A DNA stretch of 64,000 nt from Branchiostoma floridae (taxonomy: Eukaryota; Chordata; Leptocardii; Amphioxiformes; Branchiostomatidae). Below, piece after piece: positions 1-20,446 of the stretch (position 1 is its first letter; the number at the start of each line of letters is the position of its first letter). Both the position numbers and the translations under genes were made by a program. The stretch is taken from NCBI RefSeq assembly GCF_000003815.2, contig NC_049997.1, forward strand, positions 7,186,695-7,250,694. Direction: 5' to 3'. The notes beneath the pieces are model-generated. The model was not told the DNA's origin and did no database searches. It saw only the letters and a list, made by a program, of their open reading frames with translations.

Positions 1-1054
1 TTACTGTCTTATGCCACGGAGGAATCTGCTTGGAGATTATGTCACCCTCACAATGTGCGCTGTACATAAGCTATGTAATTTATGTACATGTATGACGATA
101 TCAACATGGCACCTGGAAAAGTAGAAAAAAGACAGGTGCAAAAAATACCATAGACCAATTTTTACACATACTACATGTACAGTGAAACCTGTCCAAGCAA
201 ACACCTGGCGCAGGCAGCCACATGCCGTCAGAGGACACATTGAAACAGTCCCGTCCATTTTTACATAGTTAAGACCCCCTCCCAAGCAACCACCTGTCTT
301 CCCCAACCAGCAACCACTTTTTTACAGTCCCAAAGGGGCATTCAACTTTCCTTCACCAACCAAAATTGATTGACAGCAGCTAGCTAGTACATATCTAGTA
401 GATATGAAGTAGATATCTATCAACAGCAATACAGTTCCAAACAAGGCTGTTAGGCAGCGAGATTCTTCTGTTTGGCAAACCCATCCCAAAAACAAAATGA
501 CAAAAAATAATCGTCATAATCCTTAGACTTATTCTTTTGGCAAATCCATGAATGGAAGGGTAAAGTCATACGTGAAAGTGAAACATAAATATGTGATGAC
601 TCAAATGGGGAAATGAAAGTGAAACCTACTTAGAGGTGAAACCTGTATTCCAAGAAAGAGGAAGTTTCTGAGCTCTCCACCAGGAAGACAACAAAATATT
701 TGAAATTGTAAAAATTTTACAAAAAAAAGTGTTAACTTCAGTAACGTATATAAAAAATATATCATACTAAAAAAAGTAGTTTAATATAGATGCAGTTACT
801 TGGTTCTTTACAGGCCTTGAAGCTTGATTCATAAACAAAACAAAAATGAAAGAAGTCCTGACAAAATTCTTGGGGGCTTTTCATGAGCTACCCTGTTTAC
901 AGATGAACAAACAAACACAGGTGAAAACATTGCGTTTTACTTCTGCCCAGACAACTCAACAATACCCAGGGGGAACAAGAACTTTTTCTCTTCCATTTCA
1001 ACTGTGCCCCGCCCCCATGTCGACTAAAAACTCGTAAAATCTGTTAACACCTAC
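1..1054. other. Presumed intron 1 of TYMP, no further exon seen
   Basis: This stretch lies downstream of the TYMP first exon on the minus strand and starts with that exon's donor (reverse complement of 1053-1054). I looked for the expected second exon, which should begin with a Gly-Ala-Met-Leu type sequence, and did not find it. The rest is AT-rich with no recognisable coding or repeat signal. The short ORFs on both strands here look like chance. Confidence 0.5.
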
Positions 1055-1382
1055 CGATCTGGCTGTCTTGAAACTCTTTCTCCACCACTCCTTTTACAAA
1101 GTACTGGATTTCTCCTGTAGTGAGAACTTGCCCGTCTCGTTTCTTCGCTATGACATCTGGAGCACGAAACTTTGACATGTCCACTTCTTCCCTCTGTCCC
1201 GAATCTGTAGCCATGTTCCGCTTGACTTTAAACGCAGCTCCCGTCGTTGTAACATCGAAGTTACTGGGACTATTGCACGTAGTCGCGAACTTTGTACGTT
1301 TAGCTGACCGAGACATGGTACTGGTCAAAGTCCGGGTGACCAATCTGGTAAACAACTGGCTAAACAGTGACATGTCGGCCAC
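1055..1382 (-). CDS. TYMP: Thymidine phosphorylase, first coding exon (partial gene)
   Basis: Thymidine phosphorylase cleaves thymidine and deoxyuridine with phosphate to give the base and 2-deoxyribose-1-phosphate, in pyrimidine salvage and catabolism. The exon encodes 109 residues plus one base. Residues about 72-109 carry the family's N-terminal helical motif: F-R-A-P-D-V-I, then A-K-K-R-D-G, then L-T-T-G-E-I-Q-Y-F-V and S-Q-I before Gly. In human TYMP the matching segment reads L-I-R-M-K-R-D-G and later A-Q-I-G-A-M-L. A GTAGGT donor follows the first base of the Gly codon (phase 1), just where the family continues with Gly-Ala-Met-Leu. The first 70 residues are Ser/Thr/Arg-rich and unlike the family core; they could be a targeting leader, or translation may start at Met57 or Met69. 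The remaining exons must lie off the left edge. Confidence 0.75.
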
Positions 1383-1697
1383 TTCCGCATTTCGCCTTTC
1401 ACAAACTTGTAGGGACTGTTCTTTGCTATGAATAACGGAATGCCTGCAAAATTTCCTACGTTAAAAGTTATGGAACGTAAAATAACTTTTCAAACAGTCT
1501 ATTTAAGTATATTGTCATGTATTTAATGATATTGTGTACTGTTTATGTGGATATCTTGCAAAACGGTTGGAAATATAGTACTCCAAGTTCAAAGGCAGTA
1601 AAATATTTAGTAAGAACGACTTATCCTTCCCATCATGCAGCATGGAAAATTAGGCCCCATTTTGAAAGGAAAAGGCACAAAATGTCGAGCTATAGGT
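1383..1697. other. TYMP 5' flank between gene and inverted arm
   Basis: About 315 bp separate the TYMP start from the left inverted arm. I see no TATA box and no clear coding content. The TYMP transcription start should fall here or inside the adjacent CpG-rich arm. Confidence 0.4.
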
Positions 1698-2044
1698 GCC
1701 TCCGTTTAACGGCGGCGCGCACACAATAAGCGCCACGCTACTATTGGTCAATCCCATCGGTGAGGATAGTTTCGTCGACGGCAGTACAGCAGTTCCGCCA
1801 TGCTGTTGGCTTACAATATCATAATTCAACATTTGAGCGCATAAAACACGGCCTTTTAGAGCATATTCATGCTATGTAAGCCTTTAAACAGATAGGTCCT
1901 TTTCTATATGATACTAAGAAACATACGTAATCGGAATTGACCCGAGTTTATGGTTCAAAACAGTAACTTTGTTACGCATATTTATCCCGGAAGCGACTGT
2001 CGCTTCCTTGCCCCTAGTTAGTCCCTCATTCATCGGTTAAATTT
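1698..2044 (+). repeat. Left arm of a large inverted repeat
   Basis: This 345-bp segment recurs in reverse complement at about 11986-12329. By eye the outer half is identical and the inner half differs at only a few positions. The outer end begins GCCTCCGTTTAACGGCGGCG and is CpG-rich, with a CCAAT-type box (TATTGGTC near 1743). It lies on the 5' side of the minus-strand TYMP gene and may act as its promoter. I found no convincing target-site duplication at the two outer ends. Confidence 0.85.
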
Positions 2045-4200
2045 TACGTATAACACACCATACAGGTAATATTTGCGTGGCTCTTAGCTCTGGGGACCAG
2101 GTAACACACCTTACAGGTAATATTTGCGTGGCTCTTAGCTCTCGGGACCAGGTAACACGCCGTACAGGTAATATTTGCGTGGCGCTTAGCTCTGGGGACC
2201 AGGTAACACACCCTACAGGTAATATTTGTGTGGCGCTTAGCTCTGGGGACCAGGTAACACACCGTACAGGTAATATTTGCGTGGCTCTTAGCTCTGGGGA
2301 CCAGGTAACACACCATACAGGGAATATTTGCGTGGCGCTTAGCTCTGGGGACCAGGTAACACACCCTACAGGTAATATTTACAGGTAATATTTGCGTGGC
2401 GCTTAGCTCTGGGGACCAGGTAACACACCGTACAGGTAATATTTGCGTGGCTCTTAGCTCTGAGGACCAGGTAACATACCTTACAGGTAATATTTGCGTG
2501 GCTCTTAGCTCTGGGGACCTGGTAACGCACCTTACAGGTTATATTTGTGTGGCTCTTAGCTCTGGGGACCAGGTAACACACCTTACAGGTAATATTTGCG
2601 TGGCTCTTAGCTCTCGGGACCAGGTAACACGCCGTACAGGTAATATTTGCGTGGCGCTTAGCTCTGGGGACCAGGTAACACACCCTACAGGTAATATTTG
2701 TGTGGCGCTTAGCTCTGGGGACCAGGTAACACACCGTACAGGTAATATTTGCGTGGCTCTTAGCTCTGGGGACCAGGTAACACACCATACAGGGAATATT
2801 TGCGTGGCGCTTAGCTCTGGGGACCAGGTAACACACCCTACAGGTAATATTTGCGTGGCGCTTAGCTCTGGGGACCAGGTAACAAACCGTACAGGTAATA
2901 TTTGCGTGGCTCTTAGCTCTGGGGACCAGGTAACACACCGTACAGGTAATATTTGCGTGGCGCTTAGCTCTGGGGATCCACGGTACAGGCTACACCGTAC
3001 AGGTAATATTTGCGTGGCGCTTAGCTCTGGGGACCAGGTAACACACCGTACAGGTAATATTTGCGTGGCTCTTAGCTCTGGGGACCAGGTAACACACCCT
3101 ACAGGCAATATTTGCGTGGCGCTTAGCTCTGGGGACCAGGTAACACACCCTACAGGTAATATGTGCGTGGCGCTTAGCTCTGGGGACCAGGTAACACACC
3201 CTACAGGCAATATTTGCGTGGCGCTTAGCTCTGGGGACCAGGTAACACACCCTACAGGCAATATTTGCGTGGCGCTTAGCTCTGGGGACCAGGTAACACA
3301 CCCTACAGGCAATATTTGCGTGGCGCTTAGCTCTGGGGACCAGGTAACACACCATACAGGTAATATTTGCGTGGCGCTTAGCTCTGGGGACCAGGTAACA
3401 CACCCTACATGTAATATTTGCGTGGCGCGTAGCTCTGGGGACCAGGTAACACACCCTACAGGCAATATTTGCGTGGCGCGTAGCTCTGGGGACCAGGTAA
3501 CACACCCTACAGGTAATATTTGCGTGGCTCTTAGCTCTGGGGACCAGGTAACACACCGTACAGGTAATATTTGCGTGGCGCTTAGCTCTGGGGACCAGGT
3601 AACACACCGTACAGGTAATATTTGCGTGGCGCTTAGCTCTGGGGACCAGGTAACACACCCTACAGGCAATATTTGCGTGGCGCGTAGCTCTGGGGACCAG
3701 GTAACACACCCTACAGGTAATATTTGCGTGGCTCTTAGCTCTGGGGACCAGGTAACACACCGTACAGGTATTATTTGCGTGGCGCTTAGGTCTGGGGACC
3801 AGGTAACACACCCTACAGGTAATATTTGCGTGGCGCTTAGCTCTGGGGACCAGGTAACACACCCTACAGGTAATATTTGCGTGGCTCTTAGCTCTGGGGA
3901 CCAGGTAACACACCGTACAGGTAATATTTGTGTGGCGCTTAGCTCTGGGGACCAGGTAACACACCGTACAGGTAATATTTGCGTGGCTCTTATCTCTGGG
4001 GACCAGGTAACACACCCTACAGGTAATATTTGCGTGGCTCTTAGCTCTGGGGACCAGGTAACACACCCTACAGGTAATATTTGCGTGGCTCTTAGCTCTG
4101 GGGACCAGGTAACACACCGTACAGGTAATATTTGTGTGGCGCTTAGCTCTGGGGACCAGGTAACACACCATACAAGTAATATTGCGTGGCGCTTAGCTCG
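2045..4200. repeat. 51-bp minisatellite, left arm (about 42 copies)
   Basis: The unit is 51 bp and contains GGTAATATTTGCGTGGCGCT then TAGCTCTGGGGACCAGGTAA. Because 51 is divisible by three and the unit lacks stops in several frames, long artificial ORFs appear on both strands; none should be read as genes. Copies differ at a few positions and show higher-order structure: a block of variant units near 2077-2370 recurs about 470 bp downstream. Two junctions break the period (near 2380 and 2985). The array runs into the assembly gap, so its true length is unknown. Confidence 0.95.
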
Positions 4201-4210
4201 AGAGCAGAGG

Positions 4211-4310
4211 NNNNNNNNNNNNNNNNNNNNNNNNNNNNNNNNNNNNNNNNNNNNNNNNNNNNNNNNNNNNNNNNNNNNNNNNNNNNNNNNNNNNNNNNNN
4301 NNNNNNNNNN
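4211..4310. other. Assembly gap (100 N)
   Basis: Exactly 100 N, the usual placeholder for a gap of unknown size, directly after the minisatellite. Order and orientation across the gap rest on scaffolding evidence I cannot see. Confidence 0.99.
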
Positions 4311-4379
4311 ATTAAGTTATTTTATGCATGTTTACTATATTTTCTGTATGTTTCATGTTTCAATTAGCCCTCGGGCAAG

Positions 4380-4446
4380 AACTTGCAAATAACTTTCATC
4401 ATTATTTCTGGGTGAGGCCAAGGACTTATTGATCACTCCTCGTACA
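4380..4446 (-). mobile_element. Mariner-type MITE end, remnant
   Basis: The segment ends GAGGCCAAGGACTTATTGAT followed by CACTCCTCGTA. It matches, with a few differences, the terminal inverted repeat of the complete element at 16318-16859. Only this end is present; the other may be lost or in the gap. The next bases (4480-4500, GCAGTTGCACGTACG) recur near 31310-31325, so a further repeat family adjoins it. Confidence 0.6.
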
Positions 4447-6714
4447 GATCCCAAAGGATCGCCCACGTTTTGTACGTAGACAGCACGCAGTTGCACGTAC
4501 GACGAAGCGATATCCACCCCAAGTGTAGTAGTAGTATCCAGCATAATGTGGAGGTGTATGAATAAAGTGTACGCGTTTATGTGTGTGGATTATGTACCCA
4601 AAATAATAGGGCTTAGTAGGCACTCTGTTTTGGAAACCAGCGGAGGTGGGTTTGTGTTTGAGACCACTGATTACAAAGTTACCCAGTAACAAGTAACACG
4701 ATAATGATCCATGATTTCAGCATAGCAATTGGCACAGCGACTTTGCAAGCATTTATAAATATTTCAGCCAAATTTGAAAGAAATCCGATTCTCATAACAT
4801 TAATGAGGCAGATGAAGTTCTAAACGTTCACGTCCGGATCACGGAACTCGCGTTCCAACCCCCATTTGCCGAATAGTCCTATCAAACGAGGTTTTCCTAT
4901 CAAACGAGTGCGAGTGGTATTTTTCACTTAATACTTTGGCAACGGTTGGCTAATATACTGAGCTATCTGTGTTGCTAGAAATGTTACTCTTTCGTTATTT
5001 TGCAATTGTTTAAAGATACCGAGTCCATTTATCCGTCGAAGTCGTCAGTTTTTGTGATCTCACAAAAGTCCAAAGTCCGGAAAGTCCGACATTACAAAAT
5101 GATGTCGGGTTAGGGATTTCCAACCTGAAATAGGCACAAATTTTTATATAACTCTGCTAAGGGTATTTCGGCGATATCAGCACTTTCCTTTGTGAGTGGT
5201 TACACTCGGTATACCCGTGAGTTGTGCTACAAAGTCCACTTTGGACTTTTATTTTCCAAACGTCAACAGCTCAAAACTCAATAACCAATCAAAATGATTA
5301 AATGAGAATTCATACAGCGACTAAGTAGGTTTTCATGTATATGCCGACCAAATTTGGTAGAAATCTGTCGTTCCCTAAGAGAGGTATGAAAACCACTGAC
5401 GTGTCGGCAAAAACGTGAGAGTGCACTCCGACCGCTATGTTCCACTTAGGCAATTTTAGTCCGATTTGAACCCCGCATGACGGGAGTGCGATTTACTTCA
5501 TGAAACGAGGAAAAATCGGTGTCTGTCAATGAAATTTTCACCACGGTAGGCTAATATACTGATCTATATGTACTTTAAGCGGTTTTGCTCTGTCGTCTAT
5601 CTAATTGCAGATATAGGCGATTCATCTTTCTTCATTATCCAGCTCATGCGATATCTGTACAGCAGGTGGCGCTTATCGGTGTCATTTGTCGACGTTTAAA
5701 AACCCACTATTCATGAATTGTTATCTGCACAATTGGCAAAAATACGTATCTTGATATTCCATTTGTCAGATAGCCTTCATAGTGCGCATTGATGAATACA
5801 CATACAAGTTATATATAATGGCGACATTCTATATCCTGGCGGAACTACAGGATTTGCCCTGCCGCGGTGTGTCATTGTATTTTGACGAGTTCTAAAACCG
5901 CCTGTTAACGTTCAATGATGATGATCGTGATCAGCAGAACGAGTGCCAAATTTAATCGTGATATTCCATTTGGTCAAGTCTTTCGTTTCCACTTCCTTCC
6001 TGGGCGCTTGCTGTCGATGTGCTTGGAGATACTTTATATCAATAAGTAAATATTACCCCCAATTAAATTCATCTATGTAACAATAATGATAATATACATC
6101 GATATGCCAGCCAAACTTGAGAGAAACCGTTTTTGTTTTGTAGAAGAGACATAAACGACACTTAATAGTAATTTTCCTTCAAAAGATTCAGTGTCCCGCA
6201 CAAGTATTTTTCGAAAGACCACTATTTATTCATGGTGGCTTGACTGCAGCGAAATAAAGCTTTACAAGAGATGCAATAAGAGCCACACACAACATACCCT
6301 TTTAGTGACATCACTGGCCTTTCAGTGATATCACTGGTTCCTTTTTATGTGGTACCTCTCATATTTGTAGAAATTTCAACATTTACTGTAAAGTTGCGAG
6401 AAATAGGTGATCATAGATGCCAAGTCTCCAAAACTTTAACTGAGAGTTACTTGGAAACGAATGTTTCATGTCGAATTGGGATTTCAAAGAGAGGCTACAT
6501 AAGTCCACATGAATATGTGTGATAAATATGAAGAAAAAAAAAACAAGGTGAAAAACAAACATGTTAAAGTTGCGCGCTCGCCGCGTGGCCGCATCGTGAC
6601 ATCCATGTTTCGCATGGGTAAATCAAGGTCAATTTGAAGCGCATCACGCACAATTGCATTTTTCTTTTAATTTGAAAGTTCATCTGCGTTGGTAGTTCAG
6701 TCATTATTGAACTA
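4447..6714. other. Non-coding interior with diverged tandem copies
   Basis: No gene seen. A degenerate unit recurs near 4740-4800, 5315-5375 and 6080-6135, each with a version of CCAAATTTGAAAGAAATCCG. A second shared motif (GGCTAATATACTGA) occurs near 4949 and 5549. This suggests an old array with units of roughly 575-765 bp. ORFs in this region are short and look random. Confidence 0.4.
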
Positions 6715-7115
6715 TTCTAACTGTAATATCCAACACAAAAATTGGCCTCATCCAAATTTTCGACTGAACAGCACCAGTCTTTGTCAAGAGATGAACAATC
6801 CACTGCTGTCGTGACGTCATCTTTAGCAAATACTGAATAGAACGCGTGACTCAGCAAGCTCAGATCATAGGTTGCAGGAAGGCTATGTCTCTGTTTTAAA
6901 TAGGGATGGTTGTAAAGCTCTGATGTAGATGGCTTTTTTGATCCCTCTAGCAAAATAGTCAGGCTCTATGTCCAAGATTTTAACTTTGTCCTTTGAGACC
7001 GAATGACCAGGCGATTCTATATGAATATGTTGGGAAACTTCTGAGGTTGTTGAACTTGGGGGTCTGTGCTCAAGGACCCTGGTCTTGAGTGATCGCTCAG
7101 ATTTGCTCTTCTGAG
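6715..7115 (-). pseudogene. Penelope-like element, GIY-YIG endonuclease remnant
   Basis: Read on the minus strand, the sequence gives segments typical of the C-terminal GIY-YIG endonuclease of Penelope-like retroelements: S-L-K-T-R-V-L-E-H-R, then Q-H-I-H-I-E-S-P-G-H-S-V, then K-I-L-D-I-E-P-D-Y-F, then K-K-A-I-Y-I-R-A-L-Q-P-S-L. The frame breaks just after this last block, and a later segment (Y-L-K-Q-R-H-S-L-P-A) sits in another frame. Downstream, AAGACTGGTGCTGTTCAGTC then GAAAATTT is a motif found again in a palindrome near 48.4 kb. No reverse-transcriptase domain is present, so this is a dead fragment. Its upstream end is fused to the 146-bp array. Confidence 0.75.
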
Positions 7116-8965
7116 GCAAAAAGAGCATTTTTTTGCAGAAAAAAAGATATCGCGAAACGATATCCAATTTTGTTCAACCAACTTTAGTGGGTGTGGAATG
7201 ATTTTTTGACATCAAATATGCAATTTTTTGGTAAAAAAAATCTCAATTTGCTCGTCTTTGGCAAAAAGAGCATTTTTTCGCATAAAATGATATCGCGAAA
7301 CAATGTCCGATTTTGTTCAAACCAACTTTATTGGGTGCGGAATAATTTTTCACATCCAATATGCAACTTTTGGGTCAAAAAATCTCAATTTGCTCTTCTG
7401 AGGCAAAAAGGGCATTTTTTCGCATAAAAAAATGATATCGCGAAACAATGTCCGATTTTGTTCAAACCAACTTTATTGGGTGCAGAATAATTTTTTGACA
7501 TCCAATATGCATTTTTTTGGTCAAAAAATCTCAATTTGCTCTTCTGAGGCAAAAAGAGCATTTTTTCGCATAAAAAAATGATATCGCGAAACAATGTCCG
7601 ATTTTGTTCAAACCAACTTTATTGGGTGCGGAATAATTTTTTCACATCAAATATGCAACTTTTTGGTCAAAAAATCTCAATTTGCTCTTCTGAGGCAAAA
7701 AGGGCATTTTTTCGCATAAAAAAATGATATCGCGAAACAATGTCCGATTTTGTCCAAACCAACTTTATTGGGTGCAGAATAATTTTTTGACATCCAATAT
7801 GCATTTTTTTGGTCAAAAAATCTCAATTTGCTCTTCTGAGGCAAAAAGAGCATTTTTTCGCATAAAAAAATGATATCGCGAAACAATGTCCGATTTTGTT
7901 CAAACCAACTTTATTGGGTGCGGAATAATTTTTTCACATCAAATATGCAACTTTTTGGTCAAAAAATCTCAATTTGCTCTTCTGAGGCAAAAAGAGCATT
8001 TTTTCGCATAAAAAAATGATATCGCGAAACAATGTCCGATTTTGTTCAAACCAACTTTATTGGGTGCGGAATAATTTTTTCACATCAAATATGCAACTTT
8101 TTGGTCAAAAAATCTCAATTTGCTCTTCTGAGGCAAAAAGGGCATTTTTTCGCATAAAAAAATGATATCGCGAAACAATGTCCGATTTTGTTCAAACCAA
8201 CTTTATTGGGTGTGGAATAATTTTTTGACATCCAATATGCATTTTTTTGGTCAAAAAATCTTAATTTGCTCTTCTGAGGCAAAAAGAGCATTTTTTCGCA
8301 TAAAAAAATGATATCGCGAAACAATGTTCGATTTTGTTCAAACCAACTTTATTGGGTGCGGAATAATTTTTTCACATCAAATATGCAACTTTTTGGTCAC
8401 AAAATCTCAATTTGCTCTTCTGAGGCAAAAAGAGCATTTTTTCGCATAAAAAAATGATATCGCGAAACAATGTCCGATTTTGTTCAAACCAACTTTATTG
8501 GGTGCGGAATAATTTTTTCACATCAAATATGCAACTTTTTGGTCAAAAAATCTCAATTTGCTCTTCTGAGGCAAAAAGGGCATTTTTTCGCATAAAAAAA
8601 TGATATCGCGAAACAATGTCCGATTTTGTTCAAACCAACTTTATTGGGTGTGGAATAATTTTTTGACATCCAATATGCATTTTTTTGGTCAAAAAATCTT
8701 AATTTGCTCTTCTGAGGCAAAAAGAGGCATTTTTTCGCATAAAAAAATGATATCGCGAAACAATGTTCGATTTTGTTCAAACCAACTTTATTGGGCGCGG
8801 AATAATTTTTTGACATCAAATATGCAATTTTTTGGTCAAAAAATCTCAATTTGCCCTTCTGAGGCAAAAAGTGCATTTTTTCGCACAAAAAATTGATATC
8901 GCGAAACAATGTCCGATTTTGTTCAAACCAACTTTATTAGGTGCGGAATAATTTTTTTTTACATC
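7105..8965. repeat. 146-bp tandem array (about 12-13 copies)
   Basis: The unit contains CTCAATTTGCTCTTCTGAGG, then CATTTTTTCGCATAAAA, then GATATCGCGAAACAATGTCC and CCAACTTTATTGGGTGCGG. Successive copies start at 7384, 7530 and 7676, giving a period of 146 bp, with few differences between units. ORFs repeated on the minus strand are by-products of the repeat. The left edge passes directly into the Penelope-like remnant and the right end is interrupted by a MITE. Confidence 0.95.
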
Positions 8966-9010
8966 AAATATGCAACAATTTGGTCAAAAAATCTTAATTT
9001 GCCCTTCTGA

Positions 9011-9371
9011 GGCCACACCATCTTAATTTCTTGGTTCACGGATTTTTTCTTAAAAAATATGGAGCGAGAGGGCGAAATAAAAATAAAAATTGTAAAATGG
9101 TTGGGGTAAAGGTAAGGGCTAATCCAAAACATAAAGAATAAAAAGTTTTCAGCTTGAAAAAAGTACAAAAGACTATTACTGTACAGTAACAGCACCTGTT
9201 TGTTATAAATTACAAAAGTAGTGTCAGTTTTTATGTTTGCTACACTAGAAAGTTGGTGAATGGTTTCATTAATGGTGAAAATTTGCTGAGTGGTAATTTT
9301 TATTTTTATCTTTTTTCCCAAAAAATAGGAGCGAGCGAATCCGTGAACCAAGAAATTAAATTGGTGTGGCC
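9011..9371. mobile_element. PIF/Harbinger-like MITE, copy 1
   Basis: Terminal inverted repeats of roughly 40 bp: the left end starts GGCCACACCATCTTAATTTC then TTGGTTCACGGATT, and the right end is its near reverse complement. TGA occurs at 9008-9010 and again at 9372-9374. Removing the element and one TGA restores the 146-bp unit (CTTCTGA joined to GGCAAAAAG), so this is a clean insertion. A 3-bp duplication and GGCC-type ends fit PIF/Harbinger. There is no transposase. Confidence 0.85.
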
Positions 9372-9468
9372 TGAGGCAAAAAGAGCATTTTTTCGCATAA
9401 AAAAATGCTTTCGCGAAACGATGTCTGATTTTCTTCAAACTAACTTTATTGGGTGCGGAATAATTTTT
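9372..9468. repeat. 146-bp array, fragment beyond the MITE
   Basis: This continues the array after the MITE insertion (GGCAAAAAGAGCATTTTTTC through ACTTTATTGGGTGCGGAAT) and then ends in unrelated AT-rich sequence. It fixes the right boundary of the array. Confidence 0.85.
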
Positions 9469-9469
9469 T

Positions 9470-10977
9470 AGACGAGACGCTGAAATCTTGATTACTAACC
9501 TTGCTTTTTTGTGTAATATATTAAAGCCTCATATGTTCACCCAACACTTTTTGCAAAATTTTATTTTCCTTTTTTTTTCGACCGCCCACCCCAATATTTT
9601 TCTGAAAAAATCCGAGAAGCATCAAATAAAATTACTTTACACAAAAGAAACTTGAAGCAATAGTCTAATGAATCGGTATAGGTTCACATTTTAATAAGAA
9701 CTTCATTGTGCACCAGTAGGTAATGTAAACATACTTAATTCACTATCTCCTTCGCTCTGTGACACAATTTGCACAAAAGTACATGTATATAATATAAAAA
9801 ACTTTGGGAGACAAAAGACATTTCGTATCATCTTCTAAGTTCTTTGCAAAAACTTTCGTGTTTTTTTTTTACAAAAACATCATGTAAGAATTGAGCTATT
9901 CAAACTAAATATTGTCACCAAATACCATAACAATGTTGTCATGTTCACTGTTGGAAAATATTAACACCTCTCAACATCAAAGAACCTACTCATTACATGA
10001 TACGTTGGACCCTTCCTTTTCCACTGCTAACAGAAAAGAAGTCAACCTGAACATATTTACATGTACACTTTGGATATTATCATTTCACATAACAGTAGCC
10101 AAATGTCTCACATTGTCATTGTCATGTGCAACAAATTACAAACATACAGAGTACGACCTAGGCTAGGAGAATTGTGCACAAAATAATAAACATATAACAT
10201 GACATAGAAAATCCATCACAAATCTCCAGATACTTCACACAAAATCAATGTCTAAAAACTAAAAGGTGCACATTACAGACTCCTGTGCAGCCAAGAAGTT
10301 GTAAAAATTGTGATCTAAATAAGAATGAAGATGGATGTCATATTGTTGCAGACGGTATTATACAACAAAGATAAATAGCCTCAATTGCATACAATATATG
10401 TTCCATATCTTCTAATATCAACATAGCACAGGAAAAATTATGTTACTTTAAATACGCAATTAGACAAACAATGTAATATAAGCTCCATCTTTTCCATACA
10501 TTCATACCTGCAAGAAGCGAGAAGTGGAACCTATCCTTGACTTTGTTCCAAGATCTTAGTTCGTGTATCTTTTGTTAAGAATATGTTTTCTGTGTCCTTG
10601 TTACCTCATAAGCAAATGCAACTCAGTTCGCCTGGTTGACTCAAGTCTACATCAGTGTGGGTCTGTGGCAAGCCTTCCCTGATGACTCTTCATTTTCTTA
10701 GTGACAATCTCCATCTGAAACAATGTACAAAAATTCTAATCACTCAGGCAAGACAAGATATAGAACATGTATTGGCCATCAATCTTGTTCCAGTGGTCTG
10801 ACCAGTGGGTCTGTGCTGCTAGAGAAATGTAAAATAGCTTACTCTCCTTAGATTTAATAAGAAGCATCTGGCTACAGAACGTGCCTCCAGCTAAACATGT
10901 ACAGTGAAAACAAGCAACAAAACAATTATTTGAATGTACAAATGTACTGTGAATGCAGAATTGTGTTCCCTCTTACC
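9470..10977. other. AT-rich interior, no feature seen
   Basis: About 1.5 kb with homopolymer runs and only short ORFs. I see no coding signature, splice-consistent exons or clear repeats in it. Confidence 0.4.
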
Positions 10978-11061
10978 CAGAGCTAGAAGCCACAAAGATA
11001 TTACCTGTAAGGTGCCTTATCTAGTCCCTAGAGTTAATAGACACAAAAATATTACATGTAA
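10978..11061 (-). repeat. Degenerate inner end of the right minisatellite
   Basis: About one and a half diverged copies of the 51-bp unit in reverse orientation (CAGAGCTAGAAGCCACAAAG, TATTACCTGTAAGGTG). A MITE inserted at 11062 separates them from the main right-arm array. Confidence 0.75.
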
Positions 11062-11392
11062 GGCCACACCAATTTAATTTCGTGGTTCACGGAGTTTTTC
11101 ATAAAAATATGGAGCGAGAGGGCGAAATAAAAATTTAAAAAAAAAAATTGTAAAATGGTTGGGGTAAAGGTAACGGCTAATCCAAAAAAGTACAAAAACA
11201 CTTATTGTACAGTAACAGCACCTGTATCCACACTTTAAGGAGCTTATAATATAAAGGCCAATTTGCTACACCAGAAAGCTGGTGAATGGTTTCATTAATG
11301 GTGAAAATTTGCTGAGTGGTAATTTTTTATTTTATTTCCCAAAACATAGGAGCGAGCGAATCCGTGAACCAAGAAATTAAATTGGTGTGGCC
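11062..11392. mobile_element. PIF/Harbinger-like MITE, copy 2
   Basis: Same family as the element at 9011-9371: it starts GGCCACACCAATTTAATTTC and ends with the reverse complement. TAA flanks it on both sides (11059-11061 and 11393-11395), a canonical TWA target duplication. It sits in the right-arm minisatellite. The interior shares a GGAGCGAGAGGGCGAAAT block with copy 1. Confidence 0.9.
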
Positions 11393-11395
11393 TAA

Positions 11396-11985
11396 GGTGG
11401 GTAACCAGGTTCCCAGAGCTAAGAGCCACACAAATATTACCTGTACGGTGTGTTACCTGGTCCCAAGAGCTAAGAGCCACACAAATATTACCTGTAAGGT
11501 GTGTTACCTGGTCCCCAGAGCTAAGAGCCACACAAATATAACCTGTAAGGTGCGTTACCAGGTCCCCAGAGCTAAGAGCCACGCAAATATTACCTGTAAG
11601 GTATGTTACCTGGTCCTCAGAGCTAAGAGCCAAGCAAATATTACCTGTAAGGTGTGTTACCTGGTCTCAAGAGCTAAGAGCCACACAAATATTACCTGTA
11701 AGGTGTGTTACCTGGTCCCCAGAGCTAAGAGCCACACAAATATTACCTGTACGGTGTGTTACCTGGTCCCCAGAGCTTAGAGCCATGCAAATATTACCTG
11801 TACGGTGTGTTACCTGGTCCCCAGAGCTAAGAGCCACGCAAATATTACCTGTAAGGTGTGTTACCTGGTCCCAAGAGCTAAGAGCCACGCAAATATTACC
11901 TGTAAGGTGTGTTACCTGGTCCCAAGAGCTAAGAGCCACGCAAATATTACCTGTAAGGTGTGTTATCTGGTCTCTAGAGAGCTAA
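11396..11985 (-). repeat. 51-bp minisatellite, right arm (about 11-12 copies)
   Basis: This is the reverse complement of the left-arm minisatellite. Three consecutive variant units, translated for recognition only as EDQVTYLTG, GDLVTHLTGY and GDQVTHLTG, occur in the same outer-to-inner order in both arms. The arrays are therefore inverted copies by descent, not independent expansions. The right array is shorter than the left. Confidence 0.93.
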
Positions 11986-12329
11986 AATTTAACCGATGAA
12001 TGAGGGACTAACTAGGGGCAAGGAAGCGACTTGCTTCCGGGATAAATATGCGTAACAAAGTTACTGTTTTGAACCATAAACTCGGGTCAATTCCGATTAC
12101 TTATGTTTCTTAGAATCATATAGAAAAGGACCTACCTGTTTAAGGGCTTACATAGCATGAATATGCTCTAAAAGGCCGTGTTTTATGCGCTCAAATGTTG
12201 AATTATGATATTGTAAGCCAACAGCATGGCGGAACTGCTGTACTGCCGTCGACGAAACTATCCTCACCGATGGGATTGACCAATAGTAGCGTGGCGCTTA
12301 TTGTGTGCGCGCCGCCGTTAAACGGAGGC
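11986..12329 (-). repeat. Right arm of the large inverted repeat; likely UFSP1 promoter
   Basis: Reverse complement of 1698-2044. Differences seen are a handful of substitutions and a small change in the GCGACTGTCGC segment. The outer end (12329) stops 13 bp before the UFSP1 start codon, so the UFSP1 5' UTR and core promoter must lie largely inside this arm. It is CpG-rich and carries the CCAAT-type box GACCAATA (about 12278-12285). Confidence 0.85.
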
Positions 12330-12342
12330 CATAATACCTCAA

Positions 12343-15300
12343 ATGTCGTCTGCTGATCACAAAATGCCCAAATCTCTCCTCAAAAACGTCCATGAGGGTT
12401 TGGCACCTCCGGAAGACACTCCTGGAGAAAGCGTAACGGTTAGAGGAGACTATCTGTACTACCATTATGTCTGTGACGGCGTAGATGACCGGGTAAGGAA
12501 GCCAACGCGTTTGCCCCCCTCCCCATGAATTTGGTCGACGGGCAGTCTAGAGATTCCGTATCTATGGGTGGACGTTTCTACTTCTATCTTTTACCTGTCC
12601 ACCTAATCTTACATGTGAAAGCTAGAAGCAGAAACGTTCACCCATATGGAGTCTTATTTTACATTTATTACATTACCTTTATTGTACATGCATGCGTCAA
12701 CAGTTAGGTACAGGTCACTCATAACAGCTAGACATATGCAGAAAAGCAATAAGATATTATTTAAGTATTTAAAGGCATACTACGCAGTTTTTTGCGCTCA
12801 AATTTGAAATATTCTAGAATTAAGAAATATCAGATTTACTACTACTTTTTGTCACTTTTTGACACTTTTGTGTCATTATTTCACGTCTGCAACGTAAAGG
12901 ATTAGCCTACAAACATTCCGCTCTAGGCACCCTGTAACCTTGTGTCCCCCCAACATGCCCAAGTTAGACCCTCCGGGTCTTGCTTGCCACTGGTAGGTCC
13001 CCCGGGGTGGGGTAATCAGTTAGCACATGCATGGCAGACTGCAGATAAAGAACACAATGGAGATCTTCTTTAGAAACACCTATATCTAATCATTCTAAAA
13101 TAGCATATAATCATGAACTTTTCGTAGGATATCAACAAGCTGAGGTCATATTCCCTTCAAAACTGCAAGAAACCTTGTACAGAAAGCTAGTCTACTGTAC
13201 TCAGAGGAACTGTCAACTGGCCCCCCACTGGGAAGCCAGGCTGATAAGCAAGAAACAACAACACACAGAGGCAGTAACCAGCCTGTGCCCATCTGTTTCT
13301 TGGAAGATCACAATTTTTATACATCATGCTTATGTGGTGCATTGATGTCGCAGCACCTCCCCTGAATATTGGTATGCAATGCTATAGGGTTGATTGAACT
13401 AACAATGTAAAGAAAAAGTAGGAAAAGCTACTTTTTGTTTTGTTCAAAAATCCCGTAGTATGTGCTAAGTTGCTAACCTAACAGGGTTTCTGTACTTCCC
13501 AGGGTTGGGGCTGTGCATACAGAACTCTGCAGTCTCAGTGTTCCTGGGTTCACTTCAAGCAGAAACAGACGTCCACCAACCCCAGACATCCTCCTACAAT
13601 ACTGGACATCCAGAGGGCACTTGTGGAAATGCAGGACAAGCCAGCGAGCTTTGCAGGGTCCCGGGACTGGATCGGGTCTGTGGAAGTTGGCCTCTGTATA
13701 GACTATTTTTATGATGTGAGTTTGGTAATGTTACAATGTTTTAACTTGAAATATCATTTTAGAAGTACTCTCTATTTTGGACTTAATATTTGGATTTTTA
13801 ATTGGATTTAAGGACTGCAACCTGCTAGCTGCCATGCTAGACAGAAATGTCTGGAGCAGCATCATTTGTGGCACCTCGTACTACAAGGATAAACTGAACT
13901 GAACTTAATTTTGTATTAGGTAATATTAATATTTTTTTTATGTTTCCAGGTCCAAAAGTAGAGAATACATGTACACGATCTCATTGTTGCTACAAAAGGC
14001 ATGATTAAGCTAAGGTTGCAGGACAAAACCTCCTAAAAGTCCCTTTTACAATACATATGTTTTACTCAAAACTGTTTTCTTCCTATGCTCTTTGTAGGTT
14101 CCTTGTAAAATTGTACATATCAACAGTGGCAGAGACATTCCAGACAAGATTCCAGAGCTGACAGAACATTTCCAGAGCATAGGATCCCCTGTTATGATGG
14201 GTGAGTGTGGCAGAAGATGATAGTGCACTGTTGTATGAGAGCAAGCCTCTTTGCAAAAGTAGCTTGCAGTACTTGCCTCAACTGCTAGGAGCAGGATGAT
14301 GACCATGTTTTTCTGCATCTGTGATGTTATAAGCCAGTTGGACCTATTTTTATCTTTAATATTTCATTCATTCCTTTAATATTCCATGTCATAAGGAAAG
14401 CTGTATTAATTACATAATTTGTAGTGACCAATTTTTGTGTAATTGCCTTCCTTCATTTTAACGTAATACATAGGAAATTCATCTGAGTTTAGTGTATTAA
14501 GCATTATCAGGAACCTTCCATGCAGACGCTCACTAGTGGGTCCCCATACATTGGACCAAAGGCTTAACACCACCTCTGAAGACCCTTAAGTCATCTTAAC
14601 TTTTCCTTGAGACAGGTTGTTAGGGCAACCATATTTTGTAGACAATATGTTGTGTTTTGATTTTCATTTGAAGTAGCACCATATCGTGTCTTTGCTTGAC
14701 AGCTTAAGTGAAGGTATTGTCCAAAGGAATCATGTCAAGAAAGTTGCATGGTAGGAACTCAGGAACTTGACTTGCTCAATGTCAGATAGGTGTCACATTT
14801 AACAAACATACCTGTATCTGCCATCAGTTTTTTTTTTTACATCATGGCAAGGGCACAGACTGATTGAAGACTAGTCTTGATCATCAACTTTTCATCAGCC
14901 AAATGAACTAAATACAAATAGGGCTGTAAGATTTGTAAAAAAAAACATGTACATTGTGTGTAAAGTTTTGCTAATAGTTATTTCTTACAATGTCAGGACA
15001 CATACGCCCAAATTTACGAATTTCTTGTTGGACTAGTCAAAAAGTAGGTTAGGTAAATGTAGTCCCATAGCCTGTTTGAGGCTGTAGGGACAGTGGGCTG
15101 TTAACCCGTTGTGTCTAGAACATCGTATTGGGAGGGCAAAGCCCAACCTCTTTCCTTCCACCACGTTTTACCACCAGTCTCTAACAAGTGTCAGGTACCC
15201 ACATGTACACCTAGATCAAGGAGCTTTTATCAGATAAAAGCTCCTTGCCTAGATGGAGTGAGAAACGTGTCTAGTGCCTTTCTGACAGATACAGCTCTAG

Positions 15301-18300
15301 CCAGGCATTCCAGGAATCAATCCCACATGCTTTCAGCCTCACATCTGTTAGCCTAGCCACTTGGACATTCAACACCACAGCAGTATATAGTAAACCCCTG
15401 CTTAGCCTATTGAGTCAGTGAAGTCAACCTTGCCTAAGCTTGATGTTTCTGACTTAGGGAGAAGAGATGCTGCTACAGTTATCACTATGGGCCGCTCTTC
15501 ATCTTCATAACATCAGGCCCTATGAACCTGATTTTTTTTAAAAAGGAAGAAGAACAAAGTGGAAGAAATGGAAGAATTCAAGGACAAGGGTTTCATACCC
15601 AGGGCTCGAAATACCACCTGCATATGCAGGTTAATGCAGGTATAATTGGTGTCTGCCTGCACCTAACCTGCACTGGTCCATGTACTGAGTTTATACATAA
15701 ATGTCATATGATATAGGTGTATATGTGGATTGTTATTAGCTGCATTGAATGTTGCCACCTATAGAAAGTATAAAAGAAAAAAAATTGGAATGGTTCCTGA
15801 ACAATTTTAGTATGATCCATACTTCCTACATTGAGAAGGTGCAGGTAAAATTTGTCGGGTGCAGGTAATTTTCAATGTTACCTGCAGCAGGTATGCTGAA
15901 AAAGTATTTCGAGCCCTGATACCCCAATACAGCTGGTTTAGGGTCATCACTGTAGCTCAGGTATTTCCATTATCAGGTAGATCCATTATCTAGTGAATGC
16001 AGTCCCAGAACAATTCTAAAGGCCGAATCTCTTACATAAGGTGTTCAATTATTAATCATGCAGTTCCAAAAATCATTTGTGCCCTTTTCTAAAGTGATGA
16101 AGCATCATAAGCTGATGACAAAGGCGCTGGTGTGACACCAGGAATGTCGCTTCATGCATTTTTCATGATTGATGTATCTTAACATCAAATGAAAATATGT
16201 GTGATGTATCATCAATGGCTTAAACCAGCCCACCTGTTTTGTACAGGTACAGGTGTGTTTTACAGGTGTGCACAGGGTACTCAAGTACAGGAGGGTTCCA
16301 GATTATACAGTACTATACGAGGGGTGATCAATAAGTCCTCGGCCTCATTCAGAAATAATAAGCACAACTCATTTCGAAGCATAGATGTCAAGTGTATATT
16401 TAAGTCTTTCATGAATGTGTACCAAAATTCAAATTATTGTGATCATTACTTTGCAGGCGACACTCAGTAGCGTTAGGTAAGGTAGAAGGGGAAAAACTTG
16501 ACAATTGAGTTGCGACCTGAGGTGTGCGGGTCAACTTTCGCTGCTGAAAGTCAGACAGACACTTCTTTCTGCTTGAAATTGGAAGAGAATCATTATCAAA
16601 TATTTTGACAATGTCTTTTGTTAATGACAAAGGATTTACGGCATAGGGAACTCGACCCACACATGTCTGATCACAATTCACCCTTGTTTTTCTCGCCACT
16701 TACCTTCTGATTTGCAAAAACCGAATGCCTGGAAAGTAATGACTGCAATGATTTGAAATTTGGAGGGACAAAAGGCCTCATATTATCAAGCTGTGCCTCA
16801 AAATTTGAGTTGTGCTTATTATTTCTGAGTGAGGCCGAGGACTTATTGATCACCCCTCGTATGTATCTTTTCCCACTTGTTTTGAGTTGGACAATTTGAC
16901 ATCTGTTTTGGCTGCATTCCCTTTCCTAAAATATTTAGCACTCGTTTGTAAGGACGGCTGTGACCCATGACAATATTTCGCACAAAAAGTTGCCTCTTAT
17001 GTAACAGTTATGGTTGTGTAATTCCTTTATTAAACTACTGAGCATAGAGAGGAAAAAAATCCATAAAATGTCCATTAGAAAGAAAAAAAAATCAGTGATA
17101 TTGCAGCTGCTAATGCATTTTTAGTTCCTTACAAAAGGTAATGGCCAAAAATAAGTGTCCAATTCTTTGATTTATTGTGTGTCTCCCCTAACACATAGAA
17201 AAATGGCTCCAGCTGCTTTTTTGTTGTTTTTATCTGGCTATTTTGTTCTGTTTTGTTTTGTTGATGTCTCACAGCCTAACAGTACAAAAAAAGCCCAATA
17301 AAAACACCTTAAAAAACATCAAAAGACAGATGGAGCCTAACCTCTGCTTGGAGAGTAGTGAAGAAAAATAGTCTCAGTACTTTACAAATGGGCTTAAAAT
17401 ACATAAACATGAACAGGATGTCTTGCTATTGTTGTACCTGTAGGCCCAACCCCATAGAAAAAACAGAGATAGGCATTAAAAGAATCCAGGGTTGCCATAT
17501 GGTTGTGCTGCGATGCTTTGCATGTCAATAAGTCTAAATCCAACTATATTCTTACAGCTGTTCAAAAAATAGCTCAGAACTTTTGTTTGTAGACTGCAAA
17601 CGTTTTGCAATTTTCTAAAATGTTTTCATCCCCATGGTACAAAAAGTTCTCAGATTTGGTAATACCATTACCAGTTATCAGGATATAATGCTTGAAGCAG
17701 CATCATGTATTAAATAAAACCATTGAGGTATGAAGCAGACCAATATGTGTGTTGACAAAGTCAGTGACAAGTGCTGTTGTTTTGTTTTTTACAGAAGACA
17801 TGCTTTCTTTTCCTTTCCTAAAATCATAAAGTTTAATGTATCATAGACAGGACTTAACTTCTGCAACTCTCTTATGATAGACGTGATTTGTAATGGAAAG
17901 AACAAGGTGCAGCAACTCTTAAACATGACAGAATTTACATTACGTACGTAGTTTCCTGAAAAACAGTTAACCACGAAAACAAAGTAGAAAAACTCCTTCT
18001 GTAAGACGTGCTTAAGGTCCTTGCCCTGTCTCAGAAAGATATCAAATTACTTGATTGTTTCTTGCATAACGTGACTGGCATGCCCCGAAGCTTTATCTAT
18101 TGTTCCCCATCTCTACAGTCAGAATGATTAATGGACTCTTCTTCACAGCACAGCCTTTTTTGCCCGCAGTCAATTCTTTTCATTGTACCGTCTGAACGAT
18201 GGACTAGTTACAGGACCACAACGCCTGATAACTGTTATTTACAACGAAGACTAAAATTTGGGTCAATTAAGTCAGAAACCTGAAATTTGTAGGTCTTACA

Positions 18301-20446
18301 AACTAAGGTGTTGTTATGATATTATAGGTTATAAACGTTTACGTTAAGGATTTGTTGTAAATCTACAATCAGGTGAATTGGGATTGTGACATTGTATCTT
18401 CACCTGGATTGTTGTGATTGTATCCATACATTTGTTGTAAACAATGTGTACTAGTATCAAATAATTACAGCTACATGTACAAGTCATGTCTTTGTAATCA
18501 ATTATTACCAAAGTGCAGCAATATGTCTCACAACATAATGTTTTCAAGACACTCCAGAAAACCTCAGCCACCCTTAAGGATATATTGGTCTTATGTTAAG
18601 ATGAAAGATTAACAGTCTCTGGGTAAAGTGATTCTTAATTCTAGAGAACCACTCGAGGATGTGATGTGTCATGGTGTGGTGTGATGGTTCACAAAAGATT
18701 CTATTGTGTACTGAACAATTTGTGTCCTTTAAACCCTCAGGGAAGAACAGTGTTTCAAAGGTTCTAAACGACCCACAGGACAAAATGACAGGTAAAAACA
18801 GCTCTGAAAGACAGCTCAGGACTATGGCATGTTTTAGACTGATTGTATGTCTACTATTCACAGTTCCATGACGATGGTCAATCTTAATTACTGGTCTCTT
18901 AGTTAATTTTTCCCACTGACAGTTTATAATATAGTGACCACCTGTCGACATAGACTTGATTGTGTTGATCCTGAGTGGTCTTCTTTGGCAGCTGCAGTTT
19001 CCACAGGACTTATGTTTTTCGACTGATTGTATGTCTACTATTCACAGTTCCATGACGATGGTCAATCTTACTGCTCCCTTTTAATAGATAATTTTCCTCA
19101 CTGACAGTTTATATATAGTGACCACCTGTCGACATAGACTTGATTGTGTTGATCCTGAGTGGTCTTCTTTGGCAGCTGCAGTTTCCACAGGACTTATGTT
19201 TTTAGACTGATTGTATGTCTACTATTCACAGTTCCATGACGATGGTCAATCTTAATACTGGTCCCTTGGATAATTTTTCCCACTACCAGTCTATATTGAC
19301 CACCTGTCGACATAGGCCAAGTGTCAATCCCGAGTGGTCGTCTTTGGCAGCTGCAGTTTTACCTTTACCGTGATCATGACTTTGTTCTTATACACACAGA
19401 TACGGAGTGTCATTCAGTCTATGAATTCTACGCAAGCTAACGGCAAGACTATTACAGTACGTAATAGGTACAATACAGAATACTGCTCAAAAACAGTTGA
19501 CATATAAACATACGTTACAAGTTTATCTAATTTAGAGAAACTACTTTTTTTTTACAGATACGGTAGTTAAGCTGTAATATCTAAAGTTATGATGATTTCG
19601 AATTCACTGTTTCTTTTTCCCAATGCGTGCAGGTGGAGATACAGATAACTCCTCCAAAGGCATATTTGGGGTTTGTGGATCAGGGAAAAATTCATACCTC
19701 CTAATTGTAGTAAGTATTTGTTAACTGTTTGCTAGCAGTTATCATATTCAGATTCAAAAATTCATTGCAAAGTTGCATGTACTCTGGGACAAAAGTTTTT
19801 GAAAACTTTTTTTTTATATCTTTCCATTCCATTTATAGACTTTTCCAAGTACATGTACTTTATATATGTTTTTATGTTTTTGTCAATAGTTTACACCTGT
19901 ATTGTACTTTTATGTCAATACAGTCAAGTATACCTCCATAATGATGTGACATATGATGGCACGATCGAGACACAGTTTTTCCCGATATCTACGAGCCGAC
20001 AACCTCTCGCCGACAGTTTTTTGTTCAGCGTCTAGATGGAACTGCAATATCGCCATAAAGATATCGGCAGAATTTCTCCCGAATTGTCCGGAGCATTCAC
20101 CTGATAGCTTAGCAGGGGTCCCTGACAACTTCTGCCCGAGTGTAGATGCGTCCCAACTTCGGGAGGGCTCAGTAGCATATAGCACGGGCTCATTAGGCTA
20201 GATAGCTGTTTATGACTAGATCCCTCCTGACATATCCACAGATATCAGTAAAAATTGTGTCTAGATTGGGCCTAAGTCATTGTTGTTTTGTAAACAGTCA
20301 CTTGTGTTTTTCAGGACCCTCACTACCATGGTGCGGTCCAAGACCCCCTAGCCTTGCAGCAGAATGGCTGGGTGAAGTGGCAACATGTCGAAGAATTCAA
20401 GTCAGATTCCTTCTATAATTTCTGCCTTCCCCTTTACAAACAATAA
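12343..20446 (+). CDS. UFSP1: UFM1-specific protease 1, complete, five exons
   Basis: UFSP1 is a papain-fold cysteine protease that trims pro-UFM1 and can remove UFM1 from targets. Coding exons: 12343-12492, 13503-13715, 14098-14200, 19633-19709, 20315-20446; all junctions are GT-AG and the joined frame gives 224 aa. Exon 1 carries the N-terminal L-L-K-N-V-H-E-G-L and the oxyanion region D-Y-L-Y-Y-H-Y (likely Tyr42). Exon 2 opens with [10 protein letters not shown], giving nucleophile Cys54. Exon 4 has G-G-D-T-D-N-S-S-K and exon 5 begins D-P-H-Y, giving Asp182 and His184. Length and triad spacing match mouse UFSP1 (217 aa; Cys53, Asp175, His177). It lacks the long N-terminal region of UFSP2. 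The promoter appears to lie in the right inverted arm; AATAAA follows the stop by 2 bp. Confidence 0.93.
13809..13911 (+). mobile_element. LINE 3' tail in UFSP1 intron 2
   Basis: It reads as the C-terminal end of a LINE reverse-transcriptase ORF ([12 protein letters not shown]) followed by GGCACCTCGTACTACAAGGA and an ACTGA-type tail. The longer copy at 58677-58912 has the same end. It is heavily 5'-truncated. Confidence 0.7.
15217..15247. repeat. Short perfect palindrome AAGGAGCTTTTATC...GATAAAAGCTCCTT
   Basis: A 31-bp inverted repeat (arms CAAGGAGCTTTTATC and its reverse complement). It recurs complete at 35736-35768 and as one arm at 42098-42112. It is too short for an ordinary MITE and looks like a dispersed hairpin family. 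Confidence 0.8.
15600..15918. mobile_element. hAT-like MITE in UFSP1 intron 3
   Basis: Terminal inverted repeats CAGGGCTCGAAATAC and GTATTTCGAGCCCTG. ATACC flanks both ends (15595-15599, 15919-15923). CAGGG ends are typical of hAT elements, but those give 8-bp duplications, so the outer bases may have mutated or the family may differ. The interior is rich in CCTGCA/TGCAGG motifs and has no transposase. Confidence 0.7.
16318..16859. mobile_element. Mariner-type non-autonomous element in UFSP1 intron 3
   Basis: Terminal inverted repeats of at least 53 bp with a single mismatch seen, starting CGAGGGGTGATCAATAAGTC. TA at 16316-16317 and 16860-16861 is the expected Tc1/mariner target duplication. 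The 96-aa minus-strand ORF inside shows no DDE/DDD transposase motif, so I treat it as non-autonomous. A related end lies at 4380-4446. Confidence 0.85.
18838..19358. repeat. 183-bp tandem repeat, three copies, in UFSP1 intron 3
   Basis: Copies begin at 18838, 19021 and 19205 with GACTGATTGTATGTCTACTA, and each contains ACCACCTGTCGACATAG and CTTTGGCAGCTGCAGTTT. The third copy is more diverged and shorter. This explains the repeated short ORFs around 18.6-18.9 kb. Confidence 0.9.

Follow-up and report, generated by a model that had tools for sequence, protein, structure and literature searches.

The window analyzed here is a 64,000-nucleotide stretch of the Branchiostoma floridae genome (NC_049997.1, positions 7,186,695 to 7,250,694; C19:7186695-7250694 in the genome searched), in which two near-identical inverted arms face the 5' ends of two genes, TYMP and UFSP1. 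These arms very probably (probability of about 0.88) make up the outer portions of the inverted repeats of a single foldback-type cut-and-paste DNA transposon at positions 1687–12340. Comparison of the two junctions places the insertion on the start codon of UFSP1 (ATGTC|G...), so that the ATG is duplicated and the end of the transposon now forms the sequence upstream of the gene.

An inverted-repeat element at the UFSP1 start codon

The arms at 1698–2044 and 11986–12329, which a preliminary description had recognized as near-identical inverted copies facing two genes, can be aligned over their whole length as inverted copies, with five substitutions and one 2-base gap; the pair scores 98% in the genome search. 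Their likeness is far beyond chance; the weakest of at least 15 arm matches in the 513 Mb searched (431 contigs) has an E-value of 1.8e-48. The inverted copies are real, but the extent first given to them fell short: since the two ends are unlike each other over their outer ~14 bp, comparison of copies puts the true ends farther out, at 1687 and 12340, and the similarity continues inward through arrays of a 51-bp tandem repeat. Each inverted repeat consists of a flanking domain of ~360 bp and such an array.

The element is ~10.6 kb in length and is placed on the minus strand, with end A on the right; its ends were set against five other two-ended copies. From the left it contains the flanking domain of end B (GAGCTATAGGTGCC..., 1687–2050, plus strand; 99.7% identical to end B of copy C4b by alignment), the 51-bp array of the left inverted repeat with ~42 units (2051–4199, plus strand; Tandem Repeats Finder), a 100-N assembly gap (4211–4310), and a middle domain common to other copies (4311–11392), which includes a 146-bp array (7096–9013) and shows no recognized protein family in the frames tested. 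The right inverted repeat follows, with a 51-bp array of 11.5 units (11393–11979, minus strand; Tandem Repeats Finder) and the flanking domain of end A (GAGGTATTATGGCC..., 11980–12340, minus strand), now upstream of UFSP1. As ~1.2 kb of C4b lies opposite the assembly gap, the true length of the element is uncertain.

An identical 7-bp target-site duplication, AAATGTC, bounds the element at 1680–1686 and 12341–12347, the left copy holding the former UFSP1 ATG (1682–1684) and the right copy the present one (12343–12345). The element has the features by which the foldback class is recognized, namely long inverted repeats with an outer flanking domain and internal tandem repeats, a target-site duplication together with independent copies, and a middle domain without a transposase in the copies examined.

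With the element and one copy of the duplication removed, the site reads ...CACAAAATGTCGTCTGCTG..., and the UFSP1 ATG lies 308 bp from the TYMP ATG, head to head. Because the target site lay at the start codon, the duplication yields two copies of the ATG and preserves the UFSP1 frame: the right-hand ATG retains it, and the old left-hand ATG leads 15 codons into the element before a stop. The element ends 2 bp before the ATG at 12343, which is itself inside the duplication, and not 13 bp from it as had been reported. On landing, the element split a region common to both genes, end A becoming the upstream sequence of UFSP1 and the old spacer remaining with TYMP. That ATG-to-ATG spacer (1374–1681, 308 bp) was left on the TYMP side when the ATG was duplicated, and so the formerly shared spacer is now 10.6 kb from UFSP1. 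A search with the old spacer (query 1372–1686) found one place in the genome, and no empty haplotype was seen by this search in the assembly.

Genome searches, of the kind that the preliminary description had proposed for further arm copies, yielded five other inverted pairs, a solo arm, and six pairs that belong to a second subfamily. Twelve of the left-arm matches combine into six inverted pairs (the window, C4b, C5a, C5b, C8, and C1), and unpaired matches occur at C4 (C4a), C3, and C2. The window element thus belongs to a low-copy subfamily (subfamily 1) with six two-ended copies. All six pairs are flanked by perfect 7-bp duplications (AAATGTC, TTGTGAG, GGTATTT, CACTACT, GTTTTGA, and GTCTTAT), and their end A (GAGGTATTATGGCC) can be told from their end B (GAGCTATAGGTGCC), the latter being diverged in C1. 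A 20-base core of the flanking domain was found exactly at 14 places, 12 of them in the paired arms and one each at C3 and C4a. With as many as three mismatches allowed, the core gave 26 places and its reversed control 34, the latter not broken down by mismatch class; the 12 inexact places were given no weight, and the weak matches at C14, C2, and C15 were rejected as chance. When the terminus was searched with up to two mismatches allowed, the 34 places found included a frequent G(C/T)GGTATTATGGCATCCG-like sequence, which was set aside as unrelated because ~18 of the 23 contexts shown stay alike, by eye, on both sides of the match. A frequent genome sequence around ACATCAACTCTCATAATTC.ACCGGATGCCATAATACC.CC shares ~13 bp with end A.

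The second subfamily was shown to combine the same 51-bp arrays with other flanking domains. The core of the 51-bp unit occurs at 356 genome places at up to one mismatch (control, 0), and among the matches listed, whose positions reach up to C6, some array pairs are without an arm match. Nine array-end pieces gave a second flanking domain starting with GAGGTAACTCCTGCCGTGATAG; the C3 piece was N over at least 420 bases, and two left pieces stopped short of the end. At up to two mismatches, GAGGTAACTCCTGCCGTGATAG was found at 12 places, all of them exact and forming six inverted pairs 14–17 kb apart (control, 0). Four of the six pairs have perfect 7-bp duplications (CGCGTGA, CAGTGTG, CACTGAC, and TTCCACT), and the pair at C13 has an 8-bp duplication, AAATTTTG. 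Across the two-ended elements of both subfamilies, the duplication is a perfect 7 bp in 10 of 12, 8 bp in one, and unmatched in one. Four kilobases inside the C4 element of subfamily 2 are 76–82% similar to the middle of C1 and C4b (pieces >300 bp), with an extra piece that we take to be a reverse-transcriptase-like fragment. The sequence at C2:420278-420528 is a decayed arm, its outer part like subfamily 2 and its inner part like subfamily 1; it is possibly a recombinant or an ancestor.

Rival origins, age, and known relatives

The preliminary description had offered, besides a foldback element between two head-to-head genes, a bidirectional promoter duplicated in inverted orientation and pushed apart by repeats, with the arms as copies of host promoter sequence. 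Each arm does face the 5' end of a gene in the window, but inverted arm pairs with target-site duplications occur at unrelated loci, and the old TYMP–UFSP1 spacer is a different sequence with a single place in the genome. A duplicated host promoter was rejected on these grounds and is extremely improbable. Hardly more credible is an assembly artefact in which haplotypes or a scaffold join produced two arms; there is a 100-N gap inside the element and lancelet genomes are highly heterozygous, but the 7-bp duplication is exact, the two ends are distinguishable, the same anatomy is repeated at 11 other loci, and the C4b and C5a copies contain no N. This explanation was rejected as well. The arm may instead be a stand-alone mobile unit of ~380 bp, the large element being a composite of two inverted units that move the DNA between them. 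The solo arm C4a (C4:1764114-1764492) is 379 bp in length, has its own 7-bp duplication (ACCAACC), ends in GAGGTA/TACCTC, and stops at the arm–array junction; yet it is one solo copy against 12 two-ended ones, and internal deletion of a large element would leave the same structure. We consider a composite origin unlikely. The C4a arm adjoins a glycine-rich reading frame that weakly resembles the ALK/LTK glycine-rich domain (E 0.0026, below the cut-off).

Both the exact 7-bp duplication and the existence of 11 similar two-ended elements, 10 of which have a matching duplication, uphold the insertion of a single foldback-type transposon between the two genes. Several observations weigh against it. 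The window element is interrupted by the 100-N gap, and the C299 pair of subfamily 2 is without a matching duplication, its contig stopping 7 bases beyond the element. The element sequence read, which for the interior of subfamily 2 amounts to 4 kb of one of six elements, yielded no transposase; an autonomous copy in that subfamily is conceivable. P-type transposase (PF21787) was found at at least three genome places, none of them inside an element. In the copies read, the element is non-autonomous. None of ten element reading frames matched Pfam above the cut-off, the only match being C2orf69 at E 0.018, below it, and no RAG-like gene was among these ten frames. Two of the three P-type loci were read; neither has inverted repeats at E 1e-3 or the ends of the family, to which both are unrelated. 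P-type transposase-like frames, 767 and 678 codons long from stop to stop, are located at C19:10311853 and C11:17076605.

Recent origin had been deduced from the near-identity of the arms, with ongoing gene conversion as an alternative cause. The differences specific to each end (the outer 14 bp, three substitutions, and GCAA/GCGACT) stay with their end in five young copies, and of the five substitutions between the window's arms, one is unique to its end B. The retention of these differences indicates that the arms of one copy have not been homogenised; arm-to-arm gene conversion is therefore disfavoured and was rejected. Since arms A and B hold differences of their own, arm identity within a copy does not date the insertion; a recent origin is supported by the divergence between copies. 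As a measure of age, substitutions in the middle domain were counted against C4b with gaps omitted. In Mid1 (~1030 bp), C5a has 4 substitutions, C8 6, C5b 7, and the window 7 (0.4–0.7%); in Mid2 (~2750 bp), C5a has 13, C5b 16, and the window 15, and C8 aligns in pieces. The C1 copy is older (~85% in Mid1). Lancelet heterozygosity is given as 3.2–4.2% (PMC12500494). With copies diverging by ~0.5% against 3.2–4.2% between haplotypes, the UFSP1 insertion is young and probably polymorphic in the population.

Several known transposons share features with this family, and we take the sea urchin TU element to be among such foldback-type likenesses. In the Drosophila foldback element Tetris, the anatomy comprises a flanking domain, tandem repeats, and a middle domain without apparent coding capacity (PMC4079207). 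What the family shares with Drosophila FB/Tetris is this layout, in which each long inverted repeat joins an outer flanking domain to internal tandem repeats and the middle has no apparent coding capacity; compared by description only, Tetris differs in its 8–10 bp duplications and ~220-bp units vs. the 7-bp (once 8-bp) duplications and 51-bp units found here. Galileo, a Drosophila element of the P superfamily, is likewise described as having foldback-like inverted repeats, internal tandem repeats, and duplications of 7 or 8 bp (PMC4168063); the DNA-binding domain of its transposase attaches ~70 bp from the end and finds additional sites within the tandem repeats (PMC3688188). Unlike Galileo, the present family has no P-type transposase tied to it. 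The Galileo target consensus GTANTAC fits none of the element duplications by eye, and the Galileo features are parallels, not membership. Duplications of Mutator-like elements range from 8 to 11 bp. Mu and Mutator-like foldbacks resemble the family in that their inverted repeats are long and that they insert at the 5' ends of genes (PMC7337890, PMC2774946), and maize Mu makes 9-bp duplications (PMC2774946). Such 9-bp duplications are usual for Mutator-like elements, whereas ten of the 12 elements here have 7 bp and one has 8 bp. The lancelet DNA transposon ProtoRAG has a YY1 motif (CGCCATNTT) in its inverted repeats, but it differs in its 5-bp duplications and CACTATG ends vs. 7 bp and GAG ends here (PMC7481187). 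Among the papers listed for Branchiostoma or amphioxus foldback and inverted-repeat elements, titles and opening lines of abstracts contained nothing on this element, for which a catalogued repeat name is possible.

UFSP1, TYMP, and the adopted upstream sequence

The identities proposed earlier for both genes held up. The coding part of TYMP exon 1 (1053–1373, minus strand) was assigned by translation and matches Pfam Glycos_trans_3N (E 6.8e-7), without a match in a search of this exon against PDB; its ATG is at 1373–1371, correcting the start at 1382 given before. UFSP1, on the plus strand, matches Pfam Peptidase_C78 at 6e-42 and aligns with mouse UfSP1 (2z84), the homology beginning at residue 11. 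Its exon 1 has a coding part at 12343–12492 (exon end by eye) with a second in-frame ATG at codon 8. Exon 2, at 13503–13715 (limits by eye and from homology), includes the catalytic Cys motif GWGCAYR; exon 3 is at 14098–14200 (limits by eye), and the last exon, at approximately 20300–20400, includes the DPHY box. The frame is open in the four exons read. At position -3 of the first UFSP1 ATG, the base was A before insertion and is C after it. As the codon-8 ATG has A at -3 and the homology begins only at residue 11, either start appears usable, and the ATG of codon 1 or that of codon 8 could serve as the UFSP1 start.

The observed/expected CpG ratio reaches 1.19 in the right arm and is lower in the middle domain (0.89), the old spacer (0.81), and the window as a whole (0.69). 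The right arm also contains a CCAAT box (12280), an ATGGCGG motif (12226), and an ETS-type site (12034). The subfamily-2 flanking domain has a CCAAT box too, but off the aligned position, and its CGCCATTTTG aligns with CCGCCATG of subfamily 1. Moreover, the inverted repeats of lancelet ProtoRAG, with their YY1 motif CGCCATNTT, showed bidirectional transcription activity in reporter assays (PMC7481187). The CpG ratio, the promoter-type motifs, and this precedent make a promoter function of the arm plausible, and it is plausible that the arm drives UFSP1. Tentatively, and at a little less than even odds, UFSP1 transcription may now start in the end-A flanking domain, with its CCAAT box, YY1-type ATGGCGG core, and ETS-type site. 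After the same insertion, the arm may equally not act as a promoter, UFSP1 being silenced or poorly expressed from a recent allele and other haplotypes being without the element. This outcome is a real possibility, if not quite an even one: the copies are much younger than typical allele divergence, so that the site is probably polymorphic, and the A at -3 of the first ATG turned to C on insertion. Against silencing stand the open exons with their catalytic motifs, the downstream in-frame ATG with A at -3, and the promoter-type motifs in the arm.

Two inverted-repeat elements of ~330–360 bp (GGCCACACCA...TGGTGTGGCC) are nested, by eye, in the foldback element at 9011–9371 and 11062–11392; their flanks suggest 3-bp TGA/TAA duplications, like those of Harbinger miniature inverted-repeat transposable elements. 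A further element with inverted ends like GAGGGGTGATCAATAAGTCCTCGGCCTC lies, by eye, at 16320–16870, probably in a UFSP1 intron, and a sequence resembling one of its ends sits in the middle domain of the foldback element near 4411–4447.

A possible preference for promoters and its consequences

The C1 copy is located 87 bp before the ATG of POLH (best PDB match DNA polymerase eta, 3.9e-11), and the C5b copy ~1.1 kb before a zf-UBP coding exon. Six reading frames from the flanks of C4b, C5a, and C8 were tested and none could be named above the cut-off, PhyH to the left of C8 (E 0.004) being below it. At 5 of 13 insertion sites (C5a, C1, C6x, C2x, and C13), a YY1-type motif, AANATGGCG, begins no more than 30 bp away. 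The search at 60 bp covered 1356 flanking bases, in which ~0.09 occurrences are expected from the genome-wide rate (34,605 in 513.4 Mb, one per 14.8 kb; reversed control, 8,782) and 0.12 from the local background (1 in 52,320 plus 9 in 58,604 bases). The Poisson chance of at least five sites with 0.12 expected is 2e-7, for a motif picked after the flanks had been seen. The motif occurs once in 19,276 bases at 60–1500 bp from seven subfamily-1 sites.

A 12-mer, TAAGCGCCACGC, located 41–52 bp from each C4b end, recurs in the 51-bp units. Between the flanking domain and the 51-bp unit of C4b, 12 or more shared bases were reached by 8 of 3000 dinucleotide shuffles, a comparison of sequence only. 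In C1, however, the flanking domain and the 51-bp unit share only 9 bases, a value reached by 422 of 3000 shuffles. Strong enrichment in the neighbourhood of transcription starts is described for Mu and P elements (PMC7337890). We regard it as somewhat probable that the family prefers promoters, like maize Mu and Drosophila P elements, and that the 51-bp units are extra transposase sites.

A further proposal is that of a promoter-swapping transposon, whose inverted repeats would carry a host-type promoter (CCAAT box and YY1 motif) and whose insertion YY1 would guide. YY1 bound to the element ends and to host promoters would steer insertion to ~10–30 bp from YY1 sites at transcription starts; each landing would displace the old promoter and provide a new one, and at UFSP1 the duplication would also carry the start codon. 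We consider this doubtful. Apart from the post hoc choice of AANATGGCG, 8 of 13 sites, including that of the window, are without the motif within 100 bp or the available flank; at 300 bp it is present at 6 of 13 sites and missing from 7, four subfamily-2 loci being short-flanked. If the proposal is true, the UFSP1 coding region would survive while its regulation is replaced. The YY1-adjacent insertions and the role of YY1 at lancelet ProtoRAG ends make the targeting hypothesis directly testable.

The insertion represents a recent, datable swap of a gene's upstream region, in which a common region was split and one gene was given a transposon end with its frame kept. As the copies differ by ~0.5% vs. 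3.2–4.2% between haplotypes, animals with and without the element should exist, and the effect on UFSP1, which acts in UFM1 processing, and on TYMP may be compared allele by allele.

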